A stretch of 64,000 nucleotides of DNA, taken from assembly GCA_039680605.1 (NCBI GenBank), contig JBDKTA010000022.1:124001-188000 (forward strand), in the 5' to 3' direction. The position numbers and the translations under genes were made by a program. The stretch comes from Planctomycetaceae bacterium (lineage in GTDB: Bacteria; Planctomycetota; Phycisphaerae; SM23-33). Under the pieces are notes generated by a model. The model ran no database searches. It saw only the letters and a program-made list of their open reading frames with translations, and had not been told where the DNA came from. Below are positions 4,738-60,750 of this stretch, piece by piece; the first letter of the stretch is position 1, and each line of letters opens with the position of its first letter.

Positions 4738-5102
4738 CTCAGGTCTCTTATCGGTGCGCGGCCGTGACCGCATTGAGGTTAACGCTCCGGAAACAAATTT
4801 ATCACAAACCGAGGGAATAATTTCGCCAGTGGCTTGAGCGCTTGAGTGTAGATAGACCCCCAGCGGCAAACAAGACCTTTTGGAGTGCGGCAGCCTTAGC
4901 TGCCGCTTTGGTAGTTTTTGGGACGGGCCAGTGCGTGCGGCTGCGAACAACGACGGGTGCCACGCACAACTCCGTTGTGCGTGCCCATGTGCCTTGTGCC
5001 AAAGAGACTGGTCAATGGAAGGGGCACGGCCCTGATCCTTGGGCTCCCCATTCGCGATCTGCGCTCGGGGACACGCACAACGGAGTTGTGCGTGGCACCC
5101 CG
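4738..5102. repeat. Repeat-only intergenic region with R5 and two R2 elements
   Basis: No gene is supported here. R5 (GGCAGCCTTAGCTGCC core) lies at 4881-4910. R2 (GCACAACTCCGTTGTGC, 10-bp arms) lies at 4955-4985, and an inverted copy at 5067-5101. Related copies are at 15321 and 60091 (R2) and at 39912 (R5). The promoter of the Tad operon must lie within or next to this stretch. Confidence 0.75.
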
Positions 5103-14390: not shown

Positions 14391-16061
14391 ATGCCTGATG
14401 TGGATGCGACACGACCGCAAGATTTGCCCGGCGCCGACGCGGTCATTGTCGGCTCGGGACCTAACGGGTTGGCGGCGGCGGTCGCTCTGTCGCAGGCGGG
14501 GCTCAAGACGCTGGTGATCGAGCAGGCCGCCACCATCGGCGGCGGCCTGCGGACGGCTGAGCTGACGCTGCCGGGGTTTCGCCACGACGTCTGCTCGGCG
14601 ATTCACCCGCTGGCGCTGGGCTCGCCGTTCTTCCGCTGGCTGGCGCTGGAGCGGCATGGGCTGGAGTGGATTCACTCCCCCGCCCCGCTGGCCCACCCGC
14701 TCGACGGGCGCGAGGCGGTCGTGATCGAGCGGTCCGTCGAAGACACAGCCGCCGGCTTGCTGGGCATCGACGCCGGGGCGTACCGCGACCTGATGACCCC
14801 GCTGGTGCAGCGATGGGACGCTCTGCTCGAGGACATTCTCGCTCCGCCGCACATCCCGCGACACCCCTTCACGCTGGGGCGATTCGCCGCCAACGCCGCG
14901 CGATCGGCGCGGGGGTTGGCCCAGAGGCTCTTCGCTGGCCCGCGGGCCCGCGCGCTGATCGCCGGCCTTGTAGCGCACTCGGCGATGAGCCTGGACGCCT
15001 CCCCCTCGGCGGCCTTCGCTCTGGTCCTCGCCGCCGCAGCGCACGCGGTCGGCTGGCCGCTGCCCCGCGGAGGCTCGCAAAGCCTCGCCGACGCCCTGGC
15101 CGCGTACATCACGACCGCCGGCGGCTCGATCATCACAGGCGTCAATATCCAGAGCCTCGACGATCTGCTGCCTGCTCCTGCGTGCCACGGGCGTCCCGCC
15201 CATGCTCTTTCTCTGTGGCATGGGCGTCCCGCCCATGCTCTTTCTGTGTGGCATGGGCGTCTCGCCCATGCTCTTGGGTGGCATAGGGGTCACCCGTGCT
15301 CAGCGGATCCGGGTTCAACGATCAGGGACACGCACAACGGAGTTGTGCGTGGCACCCGTCCTCTCGTGCTGCTGGACGTCACGCCGCGTCAAGTGCTCGC
15401 CCTCGCCGGCCACCGCCTGCATCCGCGATATCGCCGACAACTCCAGCGATACCGCTACGGCCCGGGCGTCTTCAAGATCGACTGGGCGCTGGCCGAACCG
15501 ATCCCCTGGCAGGCGGCTGACTGCCGCCGCGCCGCCACGGTTCACCTCGGTGGAACCTTCGACGAGATCGCCGCCTCCGAGAACGAAGTCCTGCGTGGGC
15601 AGCACCCCCAGCGGCCCTTCGTGCTGCTGGCCCAGCAGAGCCTCTTCGACCCCACCCGTGCGCCCGAGGGCAAACACACCGGCTGGGCGTACTGCCACGT
15701 GCCCAACGGTTCGACCACCGACATGACCGACGCCATCGAGGCCCAGGTCGAGCGGTTCGCCCCCGGGTTCCGCGAGGTGATCCTCGCCCGCCACACGCGC
15801 ACGGCAGCCGCCCTGGAAGCGTACAACCCCAACTGCGTCGGCGGCGACATCAACGGCGGGGCCATCGACTGGCGGCAGCTCTTCTTTCGCCCCGCTCTGC
15901 GCGCCAACCCTTACGCGACGGGCTTGCCGGGGGTGTACATCTGCTCATCCTCGACGCCCCCCGGCGGCGGCGTCCACGGCATGTGCGGCTACCACGCCGC
16001 CCGAGCGGCACTGAAAGCCGCCCAATCAGCTATTAGCGATTTTGCCAGTAATCGCAAATAA
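14391..16061 (+). CDS. CrtI/phytoene-desaturase-like FAD oxidoreductase with an in-frame repeat insertion
   Basis: 556 residues. The N-terminal dinucleotide-binding motif VIVGSGPNGLAAAVALSQAG, followed by EQAATIGGGLRT, and the C-terminal FAD motif SSSTPPGGGVHGMCGYHAARAAL place it in the phytoene desaturase/carotenoid isomerase group of amine-oxidase-like proteins. Substrate unknown. Residues about 264-322 do not belong to the fold. They translate three R3 copies (giving HGRPAHALS repeated) and one R2 copy (THNGVVRGT), inserted where other members have a loop between INIQSLDDLLPA and PLVLLDVTPRQVLALAG. The frame is maintained through all copies. Whether the protein works with this insert is unknown. 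Confidence 0.8.
   Translation: MPDVDATRPQDLPGADAVIVGSGPNGLAAAVALSQAGLKTLVIEQAATIGGGLRTAELTLPGFRHDVCSAIHPLALGSPFFRWLALERHGLEWIHSPAPLAHPLDGREAVVIERSVEDTAAGLLGIDAGAYRDLMTPLVQRWDALLEDILAPPHIPRHPFTLGRFAANAARSARGLAQRLFAGPRARALIAGLVAHSAMSLDASPSAAFALVLAAAAHAVGWPLPRGGSQSLADALAAYITTAGGSIITGVNIQSLDDLLPAPACHGRPAHALSLWHGRPAHALSVWHGRLAHALGWHRGHPCSADPGSTIRDTHNGVVRGTRPLVLLDVTPRQVLALAGHRLHPRYRRQLQRYRYGPGVFKIDWALAEPIPWQAADCRRAATVHLGGTFDEIAASENEVLRGQHPQRPFVLLAQQSLFDPTRAPEGKHTGWAYCHVPNGSTTDMTDAIEAQVERFAPGFREVILARHTRTAAALEAYNPNCVGGDINGGAIDWRQLFFRPALRANPYATGLPGVYICSSSTPPGGGVHGMCGYHAARAALKAAQSAISDFASNRK
15181..15358. repeat. R3 (three copies plus partial) and R2 inside a coding gene
   Basis: R3 core CATGGGCGTCCCGCCCATG or close variants lie at about 15184-15206, 15215-15241 and 15248-15273, with a decayed copy to 15292. 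R2 lies at 15321-15358. All lie in frame in the CrtI-like gene. R3 and R2 occur together again in the LarA-like gene at 60091-60173. Confidence 0.9.
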
Positions 16062-18377: not shown

Positions 18378-19643
18378 ATGCCTGATGCGAAGACCAAGCG
18401 GTACCTGGCGGCGGTGGATAAGACTCGGCCGGCGCGGATGAAGTGGTGGAACGAGGCGCGGTACGGGATGTTTGTTCACTGGGGGCTGTACGCGCAGATC
18501 GCCCGCAACGAGTGGGTCATGAACTTCGAGGCCTGGGAGAAGGACGAGTACGACGCCTTTGCCGACACCTGGAAGCCCAGGCCCCGCGCCGCTCGCGAGT
18601 GGGCAAAGCTGGCCGTCAAGGCCGGCATGAAGTACATGGTCCTGACCACCAAGCACCACGAGGGGTTCTGCCTCTGGGACACGCAGCAGACCGACTTCAA
18701 CGCCGTCAAACGCGGGCCGCGACGCGACCTGGTGGCCGAGTTCGTCGACGCCTGCCGCGAGTTCGGCCTAAAGGTCGGGTTCTACTACTCGCTGATGGAC
18801 TGGCGCCACGACGACGGAATGCGCTGCGGCAAAGATGAATCCGCCCGCCGGCGGTTCGTCGACTTCACCCACGCCTGCGTGCGCGAGCTGATGACCAACT
18901 ACGGCAAGGTCGACATCCTCTGGTACGACGTCTCGTGGCCGCTGAGCAAAGCGGAGCAGTGGGAAAGCGTCACGATGAACGCCATGGCCCGCAAGCTCCA
19001 GCCGCATATCCTCATCAACGACCGCTCGCAGATCCCCGAGGACTTCAACACCCCCGAGGGGCAGGTAAAGCCCTCCGAAGCCGGCCGCGGCTGGGAGGCG
19101 TGCATGATGTCGGACGAGACCTCGTGGGGCTACATGCCCTCCGCCGCGGCAGACACCGTCACCGCCCGCGACATCCTCCGCATGCTCGCCACCGCCAGCG
19201 CCAACCAGGGCAACCTGCTGCTCAACGTCGGACCGGCGCCGGACGGCACGATCCCCGCCACCGCGGCAGAGCCGCTGCTGACCGTCGGCAAGTGGCTCAA
19301 GCTCAACGGCGAGGCGGTCTACGGCCGCCTGGACCGCAACAACCTCTGGGGCTCGGCGTGCGGGATCTCGTCTCTGCGCGGCAACACGTCGTACTTCTGG
19401 TGCCGCAACTGGCCCGGCCGCGAGATTCGCCTGGGCAATTACCCGACGAAACTCAAGAAGGTCTCGTTCCTGGTCAGCGGCCGTCCCATCGAGTACGAGC
19501 AGCGCGAAAAGTGCATCATCCTCAAGAACCTCCCGCCGACCAGCCCCGACAAGCTCGCCGGCGTGACGATCATCAAACTTGAGTTCGCAAAGAAACCCGA
19601 GTTCATCAATGGCGGCGCCACGACGATGGCCTTGGGCCTCTGA
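18378..19643 (+). CDS. Alpha-L-fucosidase family GH29, cytoplasmic
   Basis: 421 residues without a signal peptide. The opening WWNEARYGMFVHWGLYAQ, the TTKHHEGFCLWD segment and the nucleophile motif VDILWYD (D184) identify GH29. This enzyme releases terminal alpha-L-fucose by a retaining mechanism. The acid/base residue is variable in the family and is not assigned. Being cytoplasmic, it may handle imported oligosaccharides, while the two lipoprotein GH29 enzymes at 24 and 28 kb act outside. The start is the ATG at 18378 with a weak AAAGAG upstream. Transcribed alone. Confidence 0.9.
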   Translation: MPDAKTKRYLAAVDKTRPARMKWWNEARYGMFVHWGLYAQIARNEWVMNFEAWEKDEYDAFADTWKPRPRAAREWAKLAVKAGMKYMVLTTKHHEGFCLWDTQQTDFNAVKRGPRRDLVAEFVDACREFGLKVGFYYSLMDWRHDDGMRCGKDESARRRFVDFTHACVRELMTNYGKVDILWYDVSWPLSKAEQWESVTMNAMARKLQPHILINDRSQIPEDFNTPEGQVKPSEAGRGWEACMMSDETSWGYMPSAAADTVTARDILRMLATASANQGNLLLNVGPAPDGTIPATAAEPLLTVGKWLKLNGEAVYGRLDRNNLWGSACGISSLRGNTSYFWCRNWPGREIRLGNYPTKLKKVSFLVSGRPIEYEQREKCIILKNLPPTSPDKLAGVTIIKLEFAKKPEFINGGATTMALGL

Positions 19644-24181: not shown

Positions 24182-25537
24182 ATGATTTTCAATCGAGTAC
24201 TGGTTCTGTGTCTTGCGGCCGCAATCTTGACCGGCTGCCAGAGCGAGACGATCTCTTCCGGCAGCACCCGCTGCCCCGACCGCCTCGCCCGCGACGAGCG
24301 GATGGAGTGGTTCCGCGACGCGAGGTACGGCATGTTCGTACACTACGGGCCCTTCTCGCAGTGGTACGACTGGTACGTCTCGAAAACGCTGCCGAACAAG
24401 GCCCCTGAGGGCGCCACGCCCGAGCAGCGAAAGCGCTGGTACGTCGCCGGCCTGACGCCGCAGCGCGACTTCGCCCGCCACCTCGCCCGGACGGCCAAGG
24501 CGGCCGGCATGAAGTACATCGTCTTCACCACCAAGCACCACGAAGGCTTTGTGCTGTGGGACACCAAGCTGACGGAGTTCAACTCGATGAACATGGGGCC
24601 GGGCTTCGACATGGTGGCCGAGTACGTCAAGGCCTGCCGCGAGGAAGGGCTCAAGATCGGGTTCTACTACTCGCTGTGGGACTTCAACCACCCCGACGGC
24701 ATTGCCAGCAAGCATGACGACGCCTCGCGCCGGCGGTTCCTGGATTACACGCAGGGCCTGCTGCGCGAGCTGATGACCAACTACGGCAAGATCGACATCC
24801 TCTGGTACGACGGCCCGAGCCCGCTGGGATACGGCGGCGAGTGGGAAGCCCAGAAGATGAACGCGATGGTCCGCCGCCTGCAACCGGGGATCATCATCAA
24901 CGACCGCTCCCTGACGGCAGAAGACTTCACCTGCTCCGAAGGGCACATCAGCGCCACGCTGCACCCCGATAGCGACTGGGAAGCGTGCATGCCCTTCCAC
25001 CACAAGCTCTGGACCTGGTACCCCGCCGACTACAAGAACTACTACACCCCACGCGACATCGTCGACATGTTCCGCCAGATCGTCGCCGGCACGGGCAACC
25101 TGCTGATGAATGTCGGACCCAACCCCGCCACCGGTCACATCGGCAACGTCGAACTGGAGCGGTTAGCCGTGGTGGGCAAATGGCTCGAGGCGCACGGCGA
25201 GGCGATCTACGGCCACGTGGACCGCCCCGAGGCGCTGGGCTTCATCACCAACGACGCCGGCGGGTTCTGGACGCGCAAGGGCAACACTGCGTACCTGTGG
25301 CTGCCCAAGTGGCCCGGCGGCGGCAAAATCGTGCTGGAGAACGTGCATGGCAAGCTGCTCAGCGCGAGCATCGTCACCAACGGCGCCAAGCTGGGCATCG
25401 ATCGCGCGCCCCAGGCGGACACCGAGACCGTCAAGAACGCCTCGCGCGTCACGCTGACGGGCCTGCCCAAAAAATGCCCCGACGCTGTGTGCAACTACGC
25501 GATCCTCAAGATCCAGTTCGAGACGTACCCGCGATAG
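24182..25537 (+). CDS. Alpha-L-fucosidase family GH29, lipoprotein, first of pair
   Basis: 451 residues from the ATG at 24182, with AAAGGA upstream; a TTG at 24164 is a weaker alternative. The signal peptide ends in the lipobox ILTGC (C19), so the protein is lipid-anchored outside the cytoplasmic membrane. GH29 marks are WFRDARYGMFVHYGPFSQW, FTTKHHEGFVLWD and IDILWYDG with nucleophile D210. It removes alpha-L-fucose from polysaccharides. It shares long blocks with the enzyme at 27825 and lies 21 nt before the GH95-like gene, so the three form an operon-like unit. Confidence 0.92.
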   Translation: MIFNRVLVLCLAAAILTGCQSETISSGSTRCPDRLARDERMEWFRDARYGMFVHYGPFSQWYDWYVSKTLPNKAPEGATPEQRKRWYVAGLTPQRDFARHLARTAKAAGMKYIVFTTKHHEGFVLWDTKLTEFNSMNMGPGFDMVAEYVKACREEGLKIGFYYSLWDFNHPDGIASKHDDASRRRFLDYTQGLLRELMTNYGKIDILWYDGPSPLGYGGEWEAQKMNAMVRRLQPGIIINDRSLTAEDFTCSEGHISATLHPDSDWEACMPFHHKLWTWYPADYKNYYTPRDIVDMFRQIVAGTGNLLMNVGPNPATGHIGNVELERLAVVGKWLEAHGEAIYGHVDRPEALGFITNDAGGFWTRKGNTAYLWLPKWPGGGKIVLENVHGKLLSASIVTNGAKLGIDRAPQADTETVKNASRVTLTGLPKKCPDAVCNYAILKIQFETYPR

Positions 25538-27824: not shown

Positions 27825-29183
27825 ATGAACCGAGTACGAACGTTGATCATGCTGCTGGCCTGTGCGGTTCTGATGGGCTGCGGCGCCATTTCTTCAAAAA
27901 CCCCCGACAGCCTCGCCCACGACGAGCGGATGGAGTGGTTCCGCGAAGCTCGCTACGGCATGTTCGTCCACTACGGGCCCTTCTCGCAGTGGTATGACCG
28001 CAACATGGCCAAGACGCAGTCGGCCCAGCCGCCGGCCGACGCCACGCCCGAGCAGAAGAGGCGGTGGTCGGTCGAGCGGCTCACGCCGCCGCGAACCTTC
28101 GCCCGCCACTGGGCCCGGACCGCCAAGGCCGCCGGGATGAAGTACGTCGTCTTCACTACCAAGCACCACGAGGGGTTCGTGCTTTGGGACACCAAGCTCA
28201 GCGACTACAACGCCATGCGGATGGGCCCGGGGTTCGACATGGTCGCCGAGTTCGCCGACGCCTGCCGCAGCGAGGGGCTCAAGGTCGGGTTCTACTATTC
28301 CCTGCTCGACGGGGATCATCCCGACGGCAGGCGATGCGAAAACGACCCTGCCGCCCGACGCCGGTTCCTGGACTACACCCAGGGCTTGCTGCGCGAGCTG
28401 ATGACCAACTACGGCCGCGTCGACCTGCTCTGGTACGACGGCCCGACGCCGCTGGGATACGCCGGCGAATGGCAGTCGCAGGAAATGAACGCCATGGTCC
28501 GCCGCCTCCAGCCGGGAATCATCATCAATGACCGCTCATTGATGGCCGAGGATTTCACCTGCTTCGAGGGCTCGATCGGCGGAACGATGACTCCCGACCA
28601 GGACTGGGAATCGTGCATGCAGTTCAACTGGACCAGCGAGTCTTCGTACCCGACCTGGACGTGGTTCCCGACCCCCCCGCAGAACTATCGCTCCGGGCGC
28701 GACATCATCGATATGCTCCAGCGATGCACCGCCGGTACGGGCAACCTGCTGCTCAACGTCGGACCAAACCCCGCCACCGGTCAGATCGGTCCCGTTGAAC
28801 AGGAGCGAATGGCTCTCGTCGGCGAGTGGCTCAAGACTCACGGCGAGGCGGTGTTCGGCCGCGCCGATCGCATCGAGAAACTAGCGAAGGTAACCAACGA
28901 CGCCGACGGAAAGTGGACGCGCAAGGGCAACGTCGCTTACCTCTGGCTGCCCAAGTGGCCCTCCGGCGGCAAGGTCGTGCTGGACAACGTGCAGTCTGAC
29001 CTGTTAGCCGCCAGCGTCCTGACTAACGGCGCCCGGCTGGACATCCAGGCGATTCCCCAAGTCGACGCCAAGGCCGGCCTGAACGTTTCGCGGGTGACGC
29101 TGTCGGGCCTGGCTCAAGAATGCCCCGACCTCATCTGCGACTACGCCGTCCTCAAGCTCGAGTTCGCCTCGTATCCGCGATAG
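27825..29183 (+). CDS. Alpha-L-fucosidase family GH29, lipoprotein, second of pair
   Basis: 452 residues from the ATG at 27825, preceded by GGAAGGG. The lipobox VLMGC (C19) marks a lipoprotein. Sequence blocks (WFREARYGMFVHYGPFSQW, VDLLWYDGPTPLGYAGEW with nucleophile D205) closely match the enzyme at 24182, so the two arose by duplication around the GH95-like gene. The pair differs in the 60-80 and 265-290 regions, which border the active site, suggesting different substrate preferences. Confidence 0.92.
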   Translation: MNRVRTLIMLLACAVLMGCGAISSKTPDSLAHDERMEWFREARYGMFVHYGPFSQWYDRNMAKTQSAQPPADATPEQKRRWSVERLTPPRTFARHWARTAKAAGMKYVVFTTKHHEGFVLWDTKLSDYNAMRMGPGFDMVAEFADACRSEGLKVGFYYSLLDGDHPDGRRCENDPAARRRFLDYTQGLLRELMTNYGRVDLLWYDGPTPLGYAGEWQSQEMNAMVRRLQPGIIINDRSLMAEDFTCFEGSIGGTMTPDQDWESCMQFNWTSESSYPTWTWFPTPPQNYRSGRDIIDMLQRCTAGTGNLLLNVGPNPATGQIGPVEQERMALVGEWLKTHGEAVFGRADRIEKLAKVTNDADGKWTRKGNVAYLWLPKWPSGGKVVLDNVQSDLLAASVLTNGARLDIQAIPQVDAKAGLNVSRVTLSGLAQECPDLICDYAVLKLEFASYPR

Positions 29184-37947: not shown

Positions 37948-38035
37948 GTCAGTCCCCTCCCGATGAAGTATAGCCCGCGTGGCGGGCAGGCGAAAACGTT
38001 TGGGGCGCCGGCACAGTTGGATTATCCTCGCAGTC

Positions 38036-39931
38036 ATGAGCACTATGGCAAATGCGGCGCCCACTGTTTTTGTCAGCCCCGGCGGCTGTGACGCCAACGA
38101 TGGGGGTTCGCCCCAGCGGTCGCTGGCGACGGTTCATCGCGCGGCGGCGGCAGTGCGCGAGCTGGCCAGCGAGGGCCGCGGCGACATTGTGGTCGAACTG
38201 GCCGATGGGACCTACGTGCTCGACAGCCCGCTCTGCCTGGGCGCCCGCGACGGCGGCGCGGGCAAGCATCGCGTGATCTATCGCGCCGCCCCGGGCGCAC
38301 GACCGATGCTCTCGGGCGGGCGCACTATCGGCCCCTGGAGCAAGGCCGCCCATCCGACCCTGGCCAACCTCTGGTCGGCGCACGTGCCGGACCTGCCCCC
38401 CACGCGACAACTCTACGTCAACGGGCGCGCCGCCGCGATGGCACGCGGGGACAAGCTGCGCCCGCGCGACGAAGACGGCGTCGAGGCGGACTTTGCGTTC
38501 CACAATCAGATCGAGACGGCCATCTCTAACGGCAGCGAGACGCCGGTGTATGAAGGCTACACCACGCGCAGCCTCGCAACGATCAGCACGTGGCGCAACG
38601 CCCGGGATATCGAGTTCGTCTACGACGTGGTCTGGACGCGGGTGATTCTGCCCGTGGAGCGGATTGAGCCCGAACGTGGCACAGGCTTTCCAGCCTGTGA
38701 CGCCTGCGTTGTGAAAATGAAGATGCCCGCCTTCCGCGACGCCCAGATCAAGGACGGCATGCACATCGACGGGCCGGACTTCATCCAGAACGCCTATGAA
38801 CTGCTGGGCACGCCGGGGCAGTGGTATCACGACCGCGCCGCGGGGGTACTCTATTACACGCCCCTGCCAGAGGAAGACATGACGACCGCGACCGTCATCG
38901 TGCCCGTGCTGGAGACGCTGCTGGAAGTGCGAGGCAGCCTGGACGAGCCCGCGCGAAACATCCGCTTCGAGGGGCTGACGTTTTCGTACACCACGTTCCT
39001 GCGGCCGCGAACGCTGGGGCACGCGGAGATCCAGGCGAACTTCCTGAAGAACCCGGCGGTGGACGTCGACCATACATCATACCTCAAGACGCCCGGCGGC
39101 GTGGTGCTCGACGCGGCGAGCGACGTGTACTTCCACCGCTGCACGTTTTCGCGCATGGGGGCCGGGGCGCTGGATATCCAGAACGGCTCGCGCGACAACG
39201 TGGTGCGGGGCTGCCTGTTCACGCAGACGGCGGCCGGGGCCGTCCAGGTCGGCGACGTGCAGGTCAGCGATGCGCACCCGGACGACCCGCGGACGATCGT
39301 GTCGGGCAACGTGATCGACAACTGCCGCCTGGTCGCCATCGGCACCGAGTTCAAGGGCAGCATCGGGATCTTCGTCGGCTACGCGGCCGGCACGGTGATC
39401 ACGCACAATGAAATCTCCGAGGTGGGCTATACGGGCATCTCGGTCGGCTGGGGCTGGGGGTACTACGACCCGTGGAGCGAGCCCGACAAGCCCAAGTTCT
39501 ACCGCGACGGGTGTTACCCGCGATTCGACACCCCCACGACCTGTCGCAATACGCTCGTCGAGCACAACCACGTGCATCACGTGCTCAACTCGCTCAACGA
39601 CGGCGGCGGCATTTACACGCTAGGCCTGCAGATCGGGGCCGTCATCCGCGAGAACCACGTGCATGACAACGGCGCCGGCCGCGGCGGGCCCGGCGGCCTG
39701 TACCTGGACGAAGGATCCGCCGGCATGGAGATCGTGGGCAACGTGATCTACAACGTCCGCCGCCCCTACCGCCTGCACCTGACCATGCCCCGCCAGCAGT
39801 GGGCCCTCAACGAGCACGACAACTTCTTCGCCGTCAGCCCCGACGACCCGCGATTCCCCCGCAGCATCGCCGATCACGCCGGCCTGGAAGAAGACTATCG
39901 CGACCTGCTCTATGGAGTGCGGCAGCCATAG
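38036..39931 (+). CDS. Right-handed parallel beta-helix (pectate-lyase-like) protein
   Basis: 631 residues from the ATG at 38036 (650 from a GTG at 37979, which gives a more signal-like start). It opens TVFVSPGGCDANDGGSPQRSLATVHRAA, the usual start of the glycan-lyase beta-helix proteins with DUF1565-like motif. Later repeats of the type VVRGCLFTQTAAGAVQVGD and NTLVEHNHVHHVLNSLNDGGG form the helix coils. It would bind or cleave an exported polysaccharide. A copy of R1 lies in frame at 38676-38705 (giving GTGFPACDAC), and the last codons and stop codon are supplied by repeat R5. Active residues are not assigned. Confidence 0.7.
   Translation: MSTMANAAPTVFVSPGGCDANDGGSPQRSLATVHRAAAAVRELASEGRGDIVVELADGTYVLDSPLCLGARDGGAGKHRVIYRAAPGARPMLSGGRTIGPWSKAAHPTLANLWSAHVPDLPPTRQLYVNGRAAAMARGDKLRPRDEDGVEADFAFHNQIETAISNGSETPVYEGYTTRSLATISTWRNARDIEFVYDVVWTRVILPVERIEPERGTGFPACDACVVKMKMPAFRDAQIKDGMHIDGPDFIQNAYELLGTPGQWYHDRAAGVLYYTPLPEEDMTTATVIVPVLETLLEVRGSLDEPARNIRFEGLTFSYTTFLRPRTLGHAEIQANFLKNPAVDVDHTSYLKTPGGVVLDAASDVYFHRCTFSRMGAGALDIQNGSRDNVVRGCLFTQTAAGAVQVGDVQVSDAHPDDPRTIVSGNVIDNCRLVAIGTEFKGSIGIFVGYAAGTVITHNEISEVGYTGISVGWGWGYYDPWSEPDKPKFYRDGCYPRFDTPTTCRNTLVEHNHVHHVLNSLNDGGGIYTLGLQIGAVIRENHVHDNGAGRGGPGGLYLDEGSAGMEIVGNVIYNVRRPYRLHLTMPRQQWALNEHDNFFAVSPDDPRFPRSIADHAGLEEDYRDLLYGVRQP
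38676..38705. repeat. R1 copy inside the beta-helix gene
   Basis: CACAGGCTTTCCAGCCTGTG, with 8-bp arms around TTCC, lies in frame in the gene. Identical cores are at 2254-2341 and 52783-52850. Confidence 0.85.
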
Positions 39932-43498: not shown

Positions 43499-43672
43499 AA
43501 ACCGACGACGAGGACGAGGACGAGGACGAGAAGAAAGAACGCTCGTGCGTTTCGTTAGCGGTCGCGCTTGCTCGACGTGTTGACCGGTTCCGAACAACCG
43601 CGCGGAGCAAGCTCCGCCGCTAACATCGCTCAGAACGCTCGTCCTCGTCGTCGTCCTCGTCCTCGTCGTCGG
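43499..43672. repeat. R7 element with an R6 element nested inside
   Basis: The R7 arms GACGACGAGGACGAGGAC (43499-43532) and the inverse (43636-43672) flank an R6 unit at 43554-43624. The R6 unit starts GTTAGCGG and ends GAGCAAGCTCCGCCGC plus TAAC, itself an inverted pair. The copy at 1259-1360 has R7 without R6, so R6 appears to have entered R7. Confidence 0.85.
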
Positions 43673-43741
43673 TTGTTTCCCGTTGTTTCCCATTTGCATC
43701 GAGTCTGTTAGAATACGCCCCAACTACATAGGACACCGACC

Positions 43742-59379: not shown

Positions 59380-60750
59380 ATGAATCTCATCGGCCAAGGA
59401 CAACCCGACGCCGCACTTACCGGCGAACAAATCGAAACCATCGTCGCCCGCCTGGCCGACCGGATCGCCGCCGACGGCAAGCGGATCCTGGTGCTGATTC
59501 CCGATCAGACCCGCTCGTGTCCGCTGGGGCTGATCGTGCGGCTGCTTCACAAGCATATCGCCAACCGGGCGGATAAGCTGGATTTCCTCATCGCCCTGGG
59601 AACGCATCAACCGCTGGACGAGGCACGCATCGACTCGCTGCTGGGCATGGCCGGCGGACAGCGAGACCGCCTGCTCAGCGGCAGCAGCGTCTTCAACCAC
59701 GACTGGAAGAACCCCGGGGCCCTCAAGACGATCGGGCGCCTGACCGCCGACCGCGTCGCCGAGATCACCGGCGGACGATTCTCGATGGACGTCGACGTCA
59801 CCATCAACCGCCGGGTCTTCGACTACGACCTGGTGCTCGTCGCCGGGCCTGTCTTCCCGCACGAGGTCGCCGGATTCTCCGGCGGCGAAAAATATTTCTT
59901 CCCCGGAATCTGCGGGCAGGAACTGCTGGACTTCTTTCACTGGCTCGGGGCCGTCATCACCTGCCCGCGCGTCATCGGCGTCAAAGACACCCCCGTGCGC
60001 CGCACCCTCCAGGCCGCCGGCGAAATGCTCCCCGTGCCCACCGCCGCGCTGTCCATGGTCGTCGCCCCACTGTGTGACACGGGCAAGATGGGTGCCACGC
60101 ACAACTCCGTTGTGCGTGTCCCTGATCTTCAAGGGCAGAGGTCAGGGAGCATGGGCGAGACGCCCATGCCACAACTGACCGGGCTGTTCGCCGGGTCGCT
60201 GCGCGATTCCTGGTCCGCCGCGGCGGACCTCTCGGCCAAGGTCCATATCCGCTACGTCCAGACGCCCTATCAGTCGGTGCTCGCGCGGGCGCCCGAAATG
60301 TACGACGACCTCTGGGTGGCCGCCAAGTGCATGTACAAGATGGAACCGGTGATGGCCGACGGCGGCGAGTTGATCATCTTCGCCCCGCACGTGAAGGAAA
60401 TCTCCTACACGCACGGGCACATCATCCGCAAGATCGGCTACCACACGCTGGAATACTTCCTGGCCCAGTGGGACCGCTTCAAGGACTACCCCTGGGGCGT
60501 GCTGGCCCACTCGACCCACGTCAAAGGCATCGGCACGTATGACACAGCCGGGCACGAAAGCCCCCGCATTCGCGTGACCCTGGCCACCGGCATCGACGAG
60601 GCCACATGCAGAGCCGTCAATCTCGGATACCGCGACCCGGCCACAATCAACCCCGCCCACTGGCAGGACCGCCCCGGCCACCTCTACATTCCCAAGGCCG
60701 GCGAAACGCTCTACCGCCTGAAGAATCCCCCCGCCTGGCAGACGTTTTAG
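59380..60750 (+). CDS. LarA family (DUF2088) protein with in-frame repeat insertion
   Basis: 456 residues. The lactate-racemase-type motif HEVAGFSGGEKYFFPG is complete (H161, K171), and the other likely catalytic histidine is H107 (FNHDW), as recalled for LarA. LarA uses a nickel-pincer nucleotide, made by LarB, LarC and LarE, none of which is seen here. The substrate is probably an alpha-hydroxy acid or sugar acid rather than lactate. Residues about 234-265 are encoded by R2 and R3 copies (ATHNSVVRV and SMGETPMPQ) in frame, at a place where other members have a short loop. Confidence 0.82.
   Translation: MNLIGQGQPDAALTGEQIETIVARLADRIAADGKRILVLIPDQTRSCPLGLIVRLLHKHIANRADKLDFLIALGTHQPLDEARIDSLLGMAGGQRDRLLSGSSVFNHDWKNPGALKTIGRLTADRVAEITGGRFSMDVDVTINRRVFDYDLVLVAGPVFPHEVAGFSGGEKYFFPGICGQELLDFFHWLGAVITCPRVIGVKDTPVRRTLQAAGEMLPVPTAALSMVVAPLCDTGKMGATHNSVVRVPDLQGQRSGSMGETPMPQLTGLFAGSLRDSWSAAADLSAKVHIRYVQTPYQSVLARAPEMYDDLWVAAKCMYKMEPVMADGGELIIFAPHVKEISYTHGHIIRKIGYHTLEYFLAQWDRFKDYPWGVLAHSTHVKGIGTYDTAGHESPRIRVTLATGIDEATCRAVNLGYRDPATINPAHWQDRPGHLYIPKAGETLYRLKNPPAWQTF
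60091..60173. repeat. R2 and R3 copies inside the LarA-like gene
   Basis: R2 (GCACAACTCCGTTGTGC) lies at 60091-60126 and R3 (CATGGGCGAGACGCCCATG) at 60147-60173, in frame. The same pair, in the opposite order and orientation, is at 15181-15358. Confidence 0.9.

Follow-up and report, generated by a model that had tools for sequence, protein, structure and literature searches.

A LarA-like gene in the stretch of DNA analysed here (the window, 64,000 nt long, positions 124001-188000 of contig C22 in a draft genome of 5.23 Mb and 72 contigs, our G000) carries a composite REP made up of half an R4 palindrome, an R2 element, a structured spacer and an R3 element. Our main reading, to which we give a probability of roughly 0.86, is that this composite entered the turn of a beta-hairpin and was retained since the reading frame was kept and only a surface turn became longer; the insert would be translated, and the enzyme would keep its function. 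R2 and R3 would be non-autonomous repeats, probably mobilised by two different HUH/Y1 transposases (RAYT, TnpA_REP) of the same genome: for R2 a free-standing RAYT on contig C39, and for R3 a RAYT that lies inside etfB on contig C4.

Because RAYTs process hairpins on single-stranded DNA, insertion probably proceeds via a single-stranded intermediate and would be blind to the reading frame. Selection would then purge the copies that shift the frame or break the fold, so that REPs may land widely while copies within genes survive if the frame is kept and the site is a turn or linker.

The composite insert and its repeat families

The product of the host ORF (59380-60750, + strand, 456 aa) is predicted to belong to the LarA family (nickel-pincer racemase-like) on the basis of a Lar_N domain (Pfam, E 6.9e-23), a LarA fold (4nar is the closest solved structure by Foldseek, TM 0.82, with lactate racemases next) and the catalytic-type residues H107, H161 and K171, which are invariant among 28 orthologues. 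An orthologue was found by protein search in 29 of 35 family genomes. All aligned family orthologues have a short four-residue beta turn (MVV-KGHD-LAGLYFG type) except that of G034, which has a longer and different insert at the same turn; in the window protein, the four residues are replaced by 37 (residues 229-265; 60064-60174, + strand).

Within this insert, a half palindrome reading CACGGGCAAGAT (60078-60089, +), matching the left arm of copies of a third REP-type family, R4 (CACGGGCAAGATGCCCGTGCTAC), adjoins the R2 element GGGTGCCACGCACAACTCCGTTGTGCGTGTCCCTGA (60090-60125, +; core ACGCACAACTCCGTTGTGCGT at 60097-60117). A spacer hairpin with an 11-bp stem (60119-60148, +; MFE -16.1 kcal/mol, z -5.2) overlaps the end of R2 and is followed by the R3 element GCATGGGCGAGACGCCCATGCCAC (GTGGCATGGGCGTCTCGCCCATGC on the minus strand; 60149-60172, -), a REP with a GTGG head. 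The sequence-only reading had already placed R2 and R3 side by side and in frame within this gene, and both are present there in an open ORF; its limits of 60091-60173 are essentially right for the repeats, but the real insert is larger and also contains the half R4 and the spacer hairpin. In an AlphaFold2 model built with the 28 aligned orthologues (mean pLDDT 87, pTM 0.87), the insert sits exactly between strands 221-228 and 266-272, and pLDDT falls below 50 at residues 233-259. The model thus places the insert as a predicted disordered loop that lengthens the beta-hairpin turn, in agreement with the protruding loop that had been supposed at residues 234-265.

Both repeats occur in numbers that far exceed chance: with up to two mismatches, the R2 core is found 119 times in the genome (0 for a reversed-pattern control), and the R3 core GGGCGTCYCGCCC is found 445 times (2 for the control). 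A GTRG-type head stands at the foot of the hairpin in R3 (GTGGCATGGGCG), in R4 (GTAGCACGGGC) and in R1 (GTGGCACAGGC), another family in the window, which forms classic inverted pairs (GTGGCACAGGCTTTCCAGCCTGTG, a short spacer and the inverse). R2 is bordered by GGGTGCC and GTCCCTGA, and no clear GTRG head was seen beside its stem. An R1 element (38676-38699) lies in frame in a beta-helix/GH141-like ORF of the window (37967-39928, +), and R1 pairs are in frame in several more genes of the genome. Elsewhere in the window, two inverted R2 copies (4952-4989 and 5063-5100, 82 nt apart) form a REPIN-like pair close to where two ORFs end.

The co-occurrence of R2 with R3, noted at first in coding genes from the sequence alone, extends to the whole genome. 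A pattern search returned 29 R2-spacer-R3 composites, all in a single order and orientation, with none in 34 other family genomes and none for the reversed-pattern control. In an unselected 780 kb, 7 of 24 R2 elements had an R3 within 100 nt downstream, oriented as in the LarA-like gene, whereas 500 trials of random placement averaged 0.34 and never exceeded 3; two R2s in this sample also had an R3 upstream. Given the 29 composites of the same order and this excess over random placement, R2 and R3 often act as one composite unit, and each is also found alone.

It is possible, but on balance unlikely, that R2 instead targets R3 and inserts beside or into R3 arrays, in which case the LarA turn would first have been hit by REPs of the R3/R4 type and only later by R2. 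About half of the composites, as judged by eye, have a half-REP to the left of R2 like that in the LarA-like gene, as if an older REP had been split; most have more R3 units after the first; and each repeat also occurs by itself. However, the spacer that separates R2 from R3 folds in most copies into a hairpin of its own (mean z -2.5 over the 29 composites, z < -1 in 22 of them), unlike the usual spacer of R3 arrays, and copying of the composite as a unit is the simpler account of the fixed order and orientation.

A second in-frame R2/R3 site in the window (15182-15360, -) consists of three R3 units and one R2, in the same order and orientation as in the LarA-like gene, within an FAD-dependent oxidoreductase-like ORF (14391-16061, +). 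The coding-score thresholds were strict enough to miss this site; by the same score, just two of the 29 composites keep the frame within a gene: that of the LarA-like gene and a weaker one. REPs in general are mainly extragenic, with 12 of 67 clusters in the 780 kb lying within ORFs whose flanks look coding on either side. Besides the LarA-like gene, twelve REP-bearing ORFs of this sample keep the frame and have coding-like flanks, and several of the repeats are inside Pfam domains; of four apparent cases of frameshifted coding sequence, at least one looks intergenic, with a stop immediately ahead of the repeat. These genome-wide frame statistics rest on the approximately 780 kb and the 29 composites.

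Two other features of the window may be recorded here. Stretches of 40 nt at 1257-1296 and 43638-43677, 42 kb apart and belonging to a GAC/GAG-rich repeat, are perfectly complementary, and three paralogous gene stretches (18620-18919, 24274-24801 and 27902-28429) are 74-81% identical and in tandem order.

Integrity of the host gene and recurrence at one beta turn

The LarA-like gene might be thought a decaying pseudogene that stays open only since GC-rich repeats lack stops in most frames. Read from the sequence, no frame of R3 and only one of the six frames of R2 contains a stop, a property that would in any case help both repeats to survive within genes. A pseudogene nevertheless seems improbable to us: all 456 codons of the ORF are open, both flanks of the insert score as coding, the residues invariant among the 28 orthologues are intact on both sides of it, the length added relative to the empty site is divisible by three, and the model keeps a pLDDT of 87 outside the insert. 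We therefore do not favour decay, on the strength of the coding flanks, the invariant residues and the model, and retain the reading of an insert tolerated in a presumably working gene.

Among 109 LarA-like homologues from many phyla, an internal insert of at least 12 aa is found in only three, all of them REP-like and all at the same turn: the window gene, the orthologue in G034 (locus L067; another genus of the family) and a homologue in a Chloroflexi MAG (L287). The turn occupies 10-12 columns in 78 of 81 aligned rows, and a comparison with 80 more distant homologues found the site empty in 77. The G034 insert contains three palindromes of the GGGCGTCYCGCCC type, whose core has 389 copies in the G034 genome, and the Chloroflexi insert consists of two inverted repeats with GTAG heads (GTAGGGGCAGGTTT...AAACCTGCCCCTAC in that order), whose family has seven close copies in the MAG. 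Since every large insert is REP-like and falls at this one turn, the turn appears to be a tolerated site, which is what the sequence-only reading had guessed. A fourth apparent carrier, L243, was discarded when its long insert proved to be merely a run of N.

The three inserts are unrelated as peptides. The best tree gives two separate gains for the window and G034 inserts, although the AU test does not reject a shared origin with later divergence (p 0.27 for a single origin); the Chloroflexi insert is clearly separate in origin from the other two. The recurrent use of one turn in three lineages could also be taken as a sign of adaptation, with REP-encoded loops recruited for a new function such as an interaction or regulatory loop. 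We regard this as very unlikely: the peptides are unrelated, the window copy is predicted to be disordered, and tolerance of the inserts suffices. A misjoin through the repeat is conceivable in a draft assembly with a repeat of such high copy number, but a misjoin would link different genes, whereas here a single orthologue, read in one frame and with its conserved core complete, lies on either side of the insert, and we reject it.

Transposase genes of the RAYT type

The genome has 15 Y1_Tnp matches, and at the ten RAYT loci first returned neither R1 nor R2 flanked the gene. Two loci supply the candidates. On contig C39, a free-standing RAYT of 195 aa (L156:2320-2907) with the motifs HxH (EHVH) and YIHNNP has R2 copies on each side. 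On both sides of this gene (L156:1965-3289), R2 alternates with a variant, ACGCACAGCGGAGCTGTGCGT, each unit measuring approximately 173 nt.

On contig C4 (18785-20416, equivalent to L025:844-2478, - strand), a second RAYT (Pfam Y1_Tnp, E 1.2e-8; motifs NHVH and YAWKNP) lies in frame inside etfB and is flanked by inverted R3 arrays. A single ORF of 544 aa without a stop runs from EtfB through an R3-encoded linker, the RAYT and another R3-encoded linker back into EtfB, at a junction where the EtfB of relatives has only four residues (GEVD type). The AlphaFold2 model of the fusion (pLDDT 72; pTM 0.49, which leaves the placement of the domains unsure) has both folds joined by disordered linkers and matches EtfB structures and 4er8, a RAYT bound to REP (Foldseek). 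Taken together, R2 and R3 each have a candidate cognate RAYT, that on C39 for R2 and that embedded in etfB for R3, although mobilisation by these enzymes is proposed from sequence and context.

The closest family relatives of the etfB RAYT occur one per genome and likewise lie within a host gene without breaking its frame: seven of them interrupt valyl-tRNA synthetase (ValRS) at its CP1 editing-domain junction, and one interrupts the C-terminal part of the same enzyme. A relative at E 1e-35 or better is present in 47 of 397 genomes of the class, and at 29 of the 31 loci examined the R3-type RAYT is in frame inside a host ORF (the other two are not embedded); the relatives in other genomes of the class are at loci L097-L104 and L206-L235. 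The HxH motif is intact at all 31. The hosts of the 29 are ValRS at CP1 (17) or in its C-terminal part (1), a DinG-like helicase (6), an N6/N4 DNA methylase (2) and, once each, a DUF1156 methylase, a type ISP enzyme and EtfB; three of these ORFs, some of DinG type, were assigned by flank similarity rather than by an individual Pfam scan. The ValRS site itself is found in several states: empty alleles with a gap of 15-17 aa (up to 20), alleles with a REP-like remnant or REPs only (21-33 aa; G020, G032, G033, G026 and G011), and REP-RAYT-REP alleles (241-334 aa).

The clustering of host labels on the RAYT tree suggests that inheritance has been mostly vertical, with some changes of host. A single origin of all ValRS-embedded RAYTs was rejected (AU p 0.018), on a tree with long branches and modest support.

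We lean, by a little better than even odds, toward a wider interpretation in which a RAYT clade of this class exists as in-frame insertion domains of conserved proteins (at the ValRS editing-domain junction and in DinG-like helicases, EtfB and DNA methylases), flanked by in-frame REPs and seeding REPs into tolerated loops elsewhere, the LarA insert being one such footprint. The transposase would then be made within an essential protein and so be protected from loss. RAYTs have been described as domesticated transposases whose reasons for persistence are unclear (PMC8266576, PMC8049555). Lodging in frame within an essential gene would offer them a simple route to persistence, since any inexact deletion would be harmful. 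What was a vague idea of mobile repeats hidden in genes thereby becomes a testable series: one beta turn of one enzyme family that is either empty or, in three separate organisms, filled by a REP-like insert, and one ValRS junction with empty, REP-only and REP-RAYT-REP alleles.

Relation to known systems

The embedded RAYTs resemble inteins and homing elements, in which a conserved host protein likewise carries, in frame and at one fixed site, a protein encoded by a mobile element, and both occupied and empty alleles exist. They differ from these in that Pfam revealed no splicing domain in the fusions examined, the REP-encoded linkers stay in the predicted fusion protein, and the nuclease belongs to the HUH type.

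REPs and REPINs are short, high-copy palindromes that occur as singletons, inverted pairs and clusters, mostly between genes, and whose cognate HUH/Y1 gene is flanked by its own repeats (PMC3733652, PMC3116915, PMC8266576); copying of REPs by RAYTs through single-stranded DNA has been established in vitro for E. coli and others (PMC8266576). R2 and R3 are likewise short high-copy palindromes, with a GTRG head in R3 and R4 and RAYT genes flanked by their own repeats. PMC3733652 describes dimers that combine two REP families, and also structured spacers; here, in contrast to ordinary REPs and REPINs, a hybrid of two families makes up a composite unit that lies in frame in a housekeeping-type gene, and the transposase gene of R3 is itself in frame inside etfB.

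Intragenic REPs are also known. GTAG REPs of Opitutus terrae and others, some with GTGG heads, are reported as singles, dimers and clusters that encode 20 to 80 aa within ORFs, and the recB genes of two Xanthomonas species have REPs at about the same site (PMC3733652), a situation nearly identical to that of the same-turn LarA inserts. Compared with these Opitutus-type intragenic REPs, the recurrence at one turn described here crosses phyla and is tied to a structural model. The Rickettsia palindromic elements (RPE), which the same paper describes as palindromic repeats in frame in genes of apparently functional proteins, resemble the LarA insert by description only, and that paper describes no cognate RAYT for them, whereas R2 and R3 here each have a candidate. 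Nor does the accessible part of PMC3733652 mention a RAYT gene embedded in a host ORF.

No report of an in-frame RAYT in a tRNA synthetase was found in the literature searched, a body of work that left most subscription papers outside its coverage. Embedded RAYTs may have gone unnoticed because proteins longer than expected were dropped from a survey of Y1 transposases, where they were taken for gene fusions or annotation errors (PMC6006769), and the present fusions bear on how such proteins are annotated. In-frame intragenic REPs, GTGG heads, hybrid dimers and cognate RAYTs are thus already known; what is new, as far as the literature searched shows, is the reuse of one beta turn across phyla and, above all, the residence of RAYT genes in frame in essential or conserved genes.
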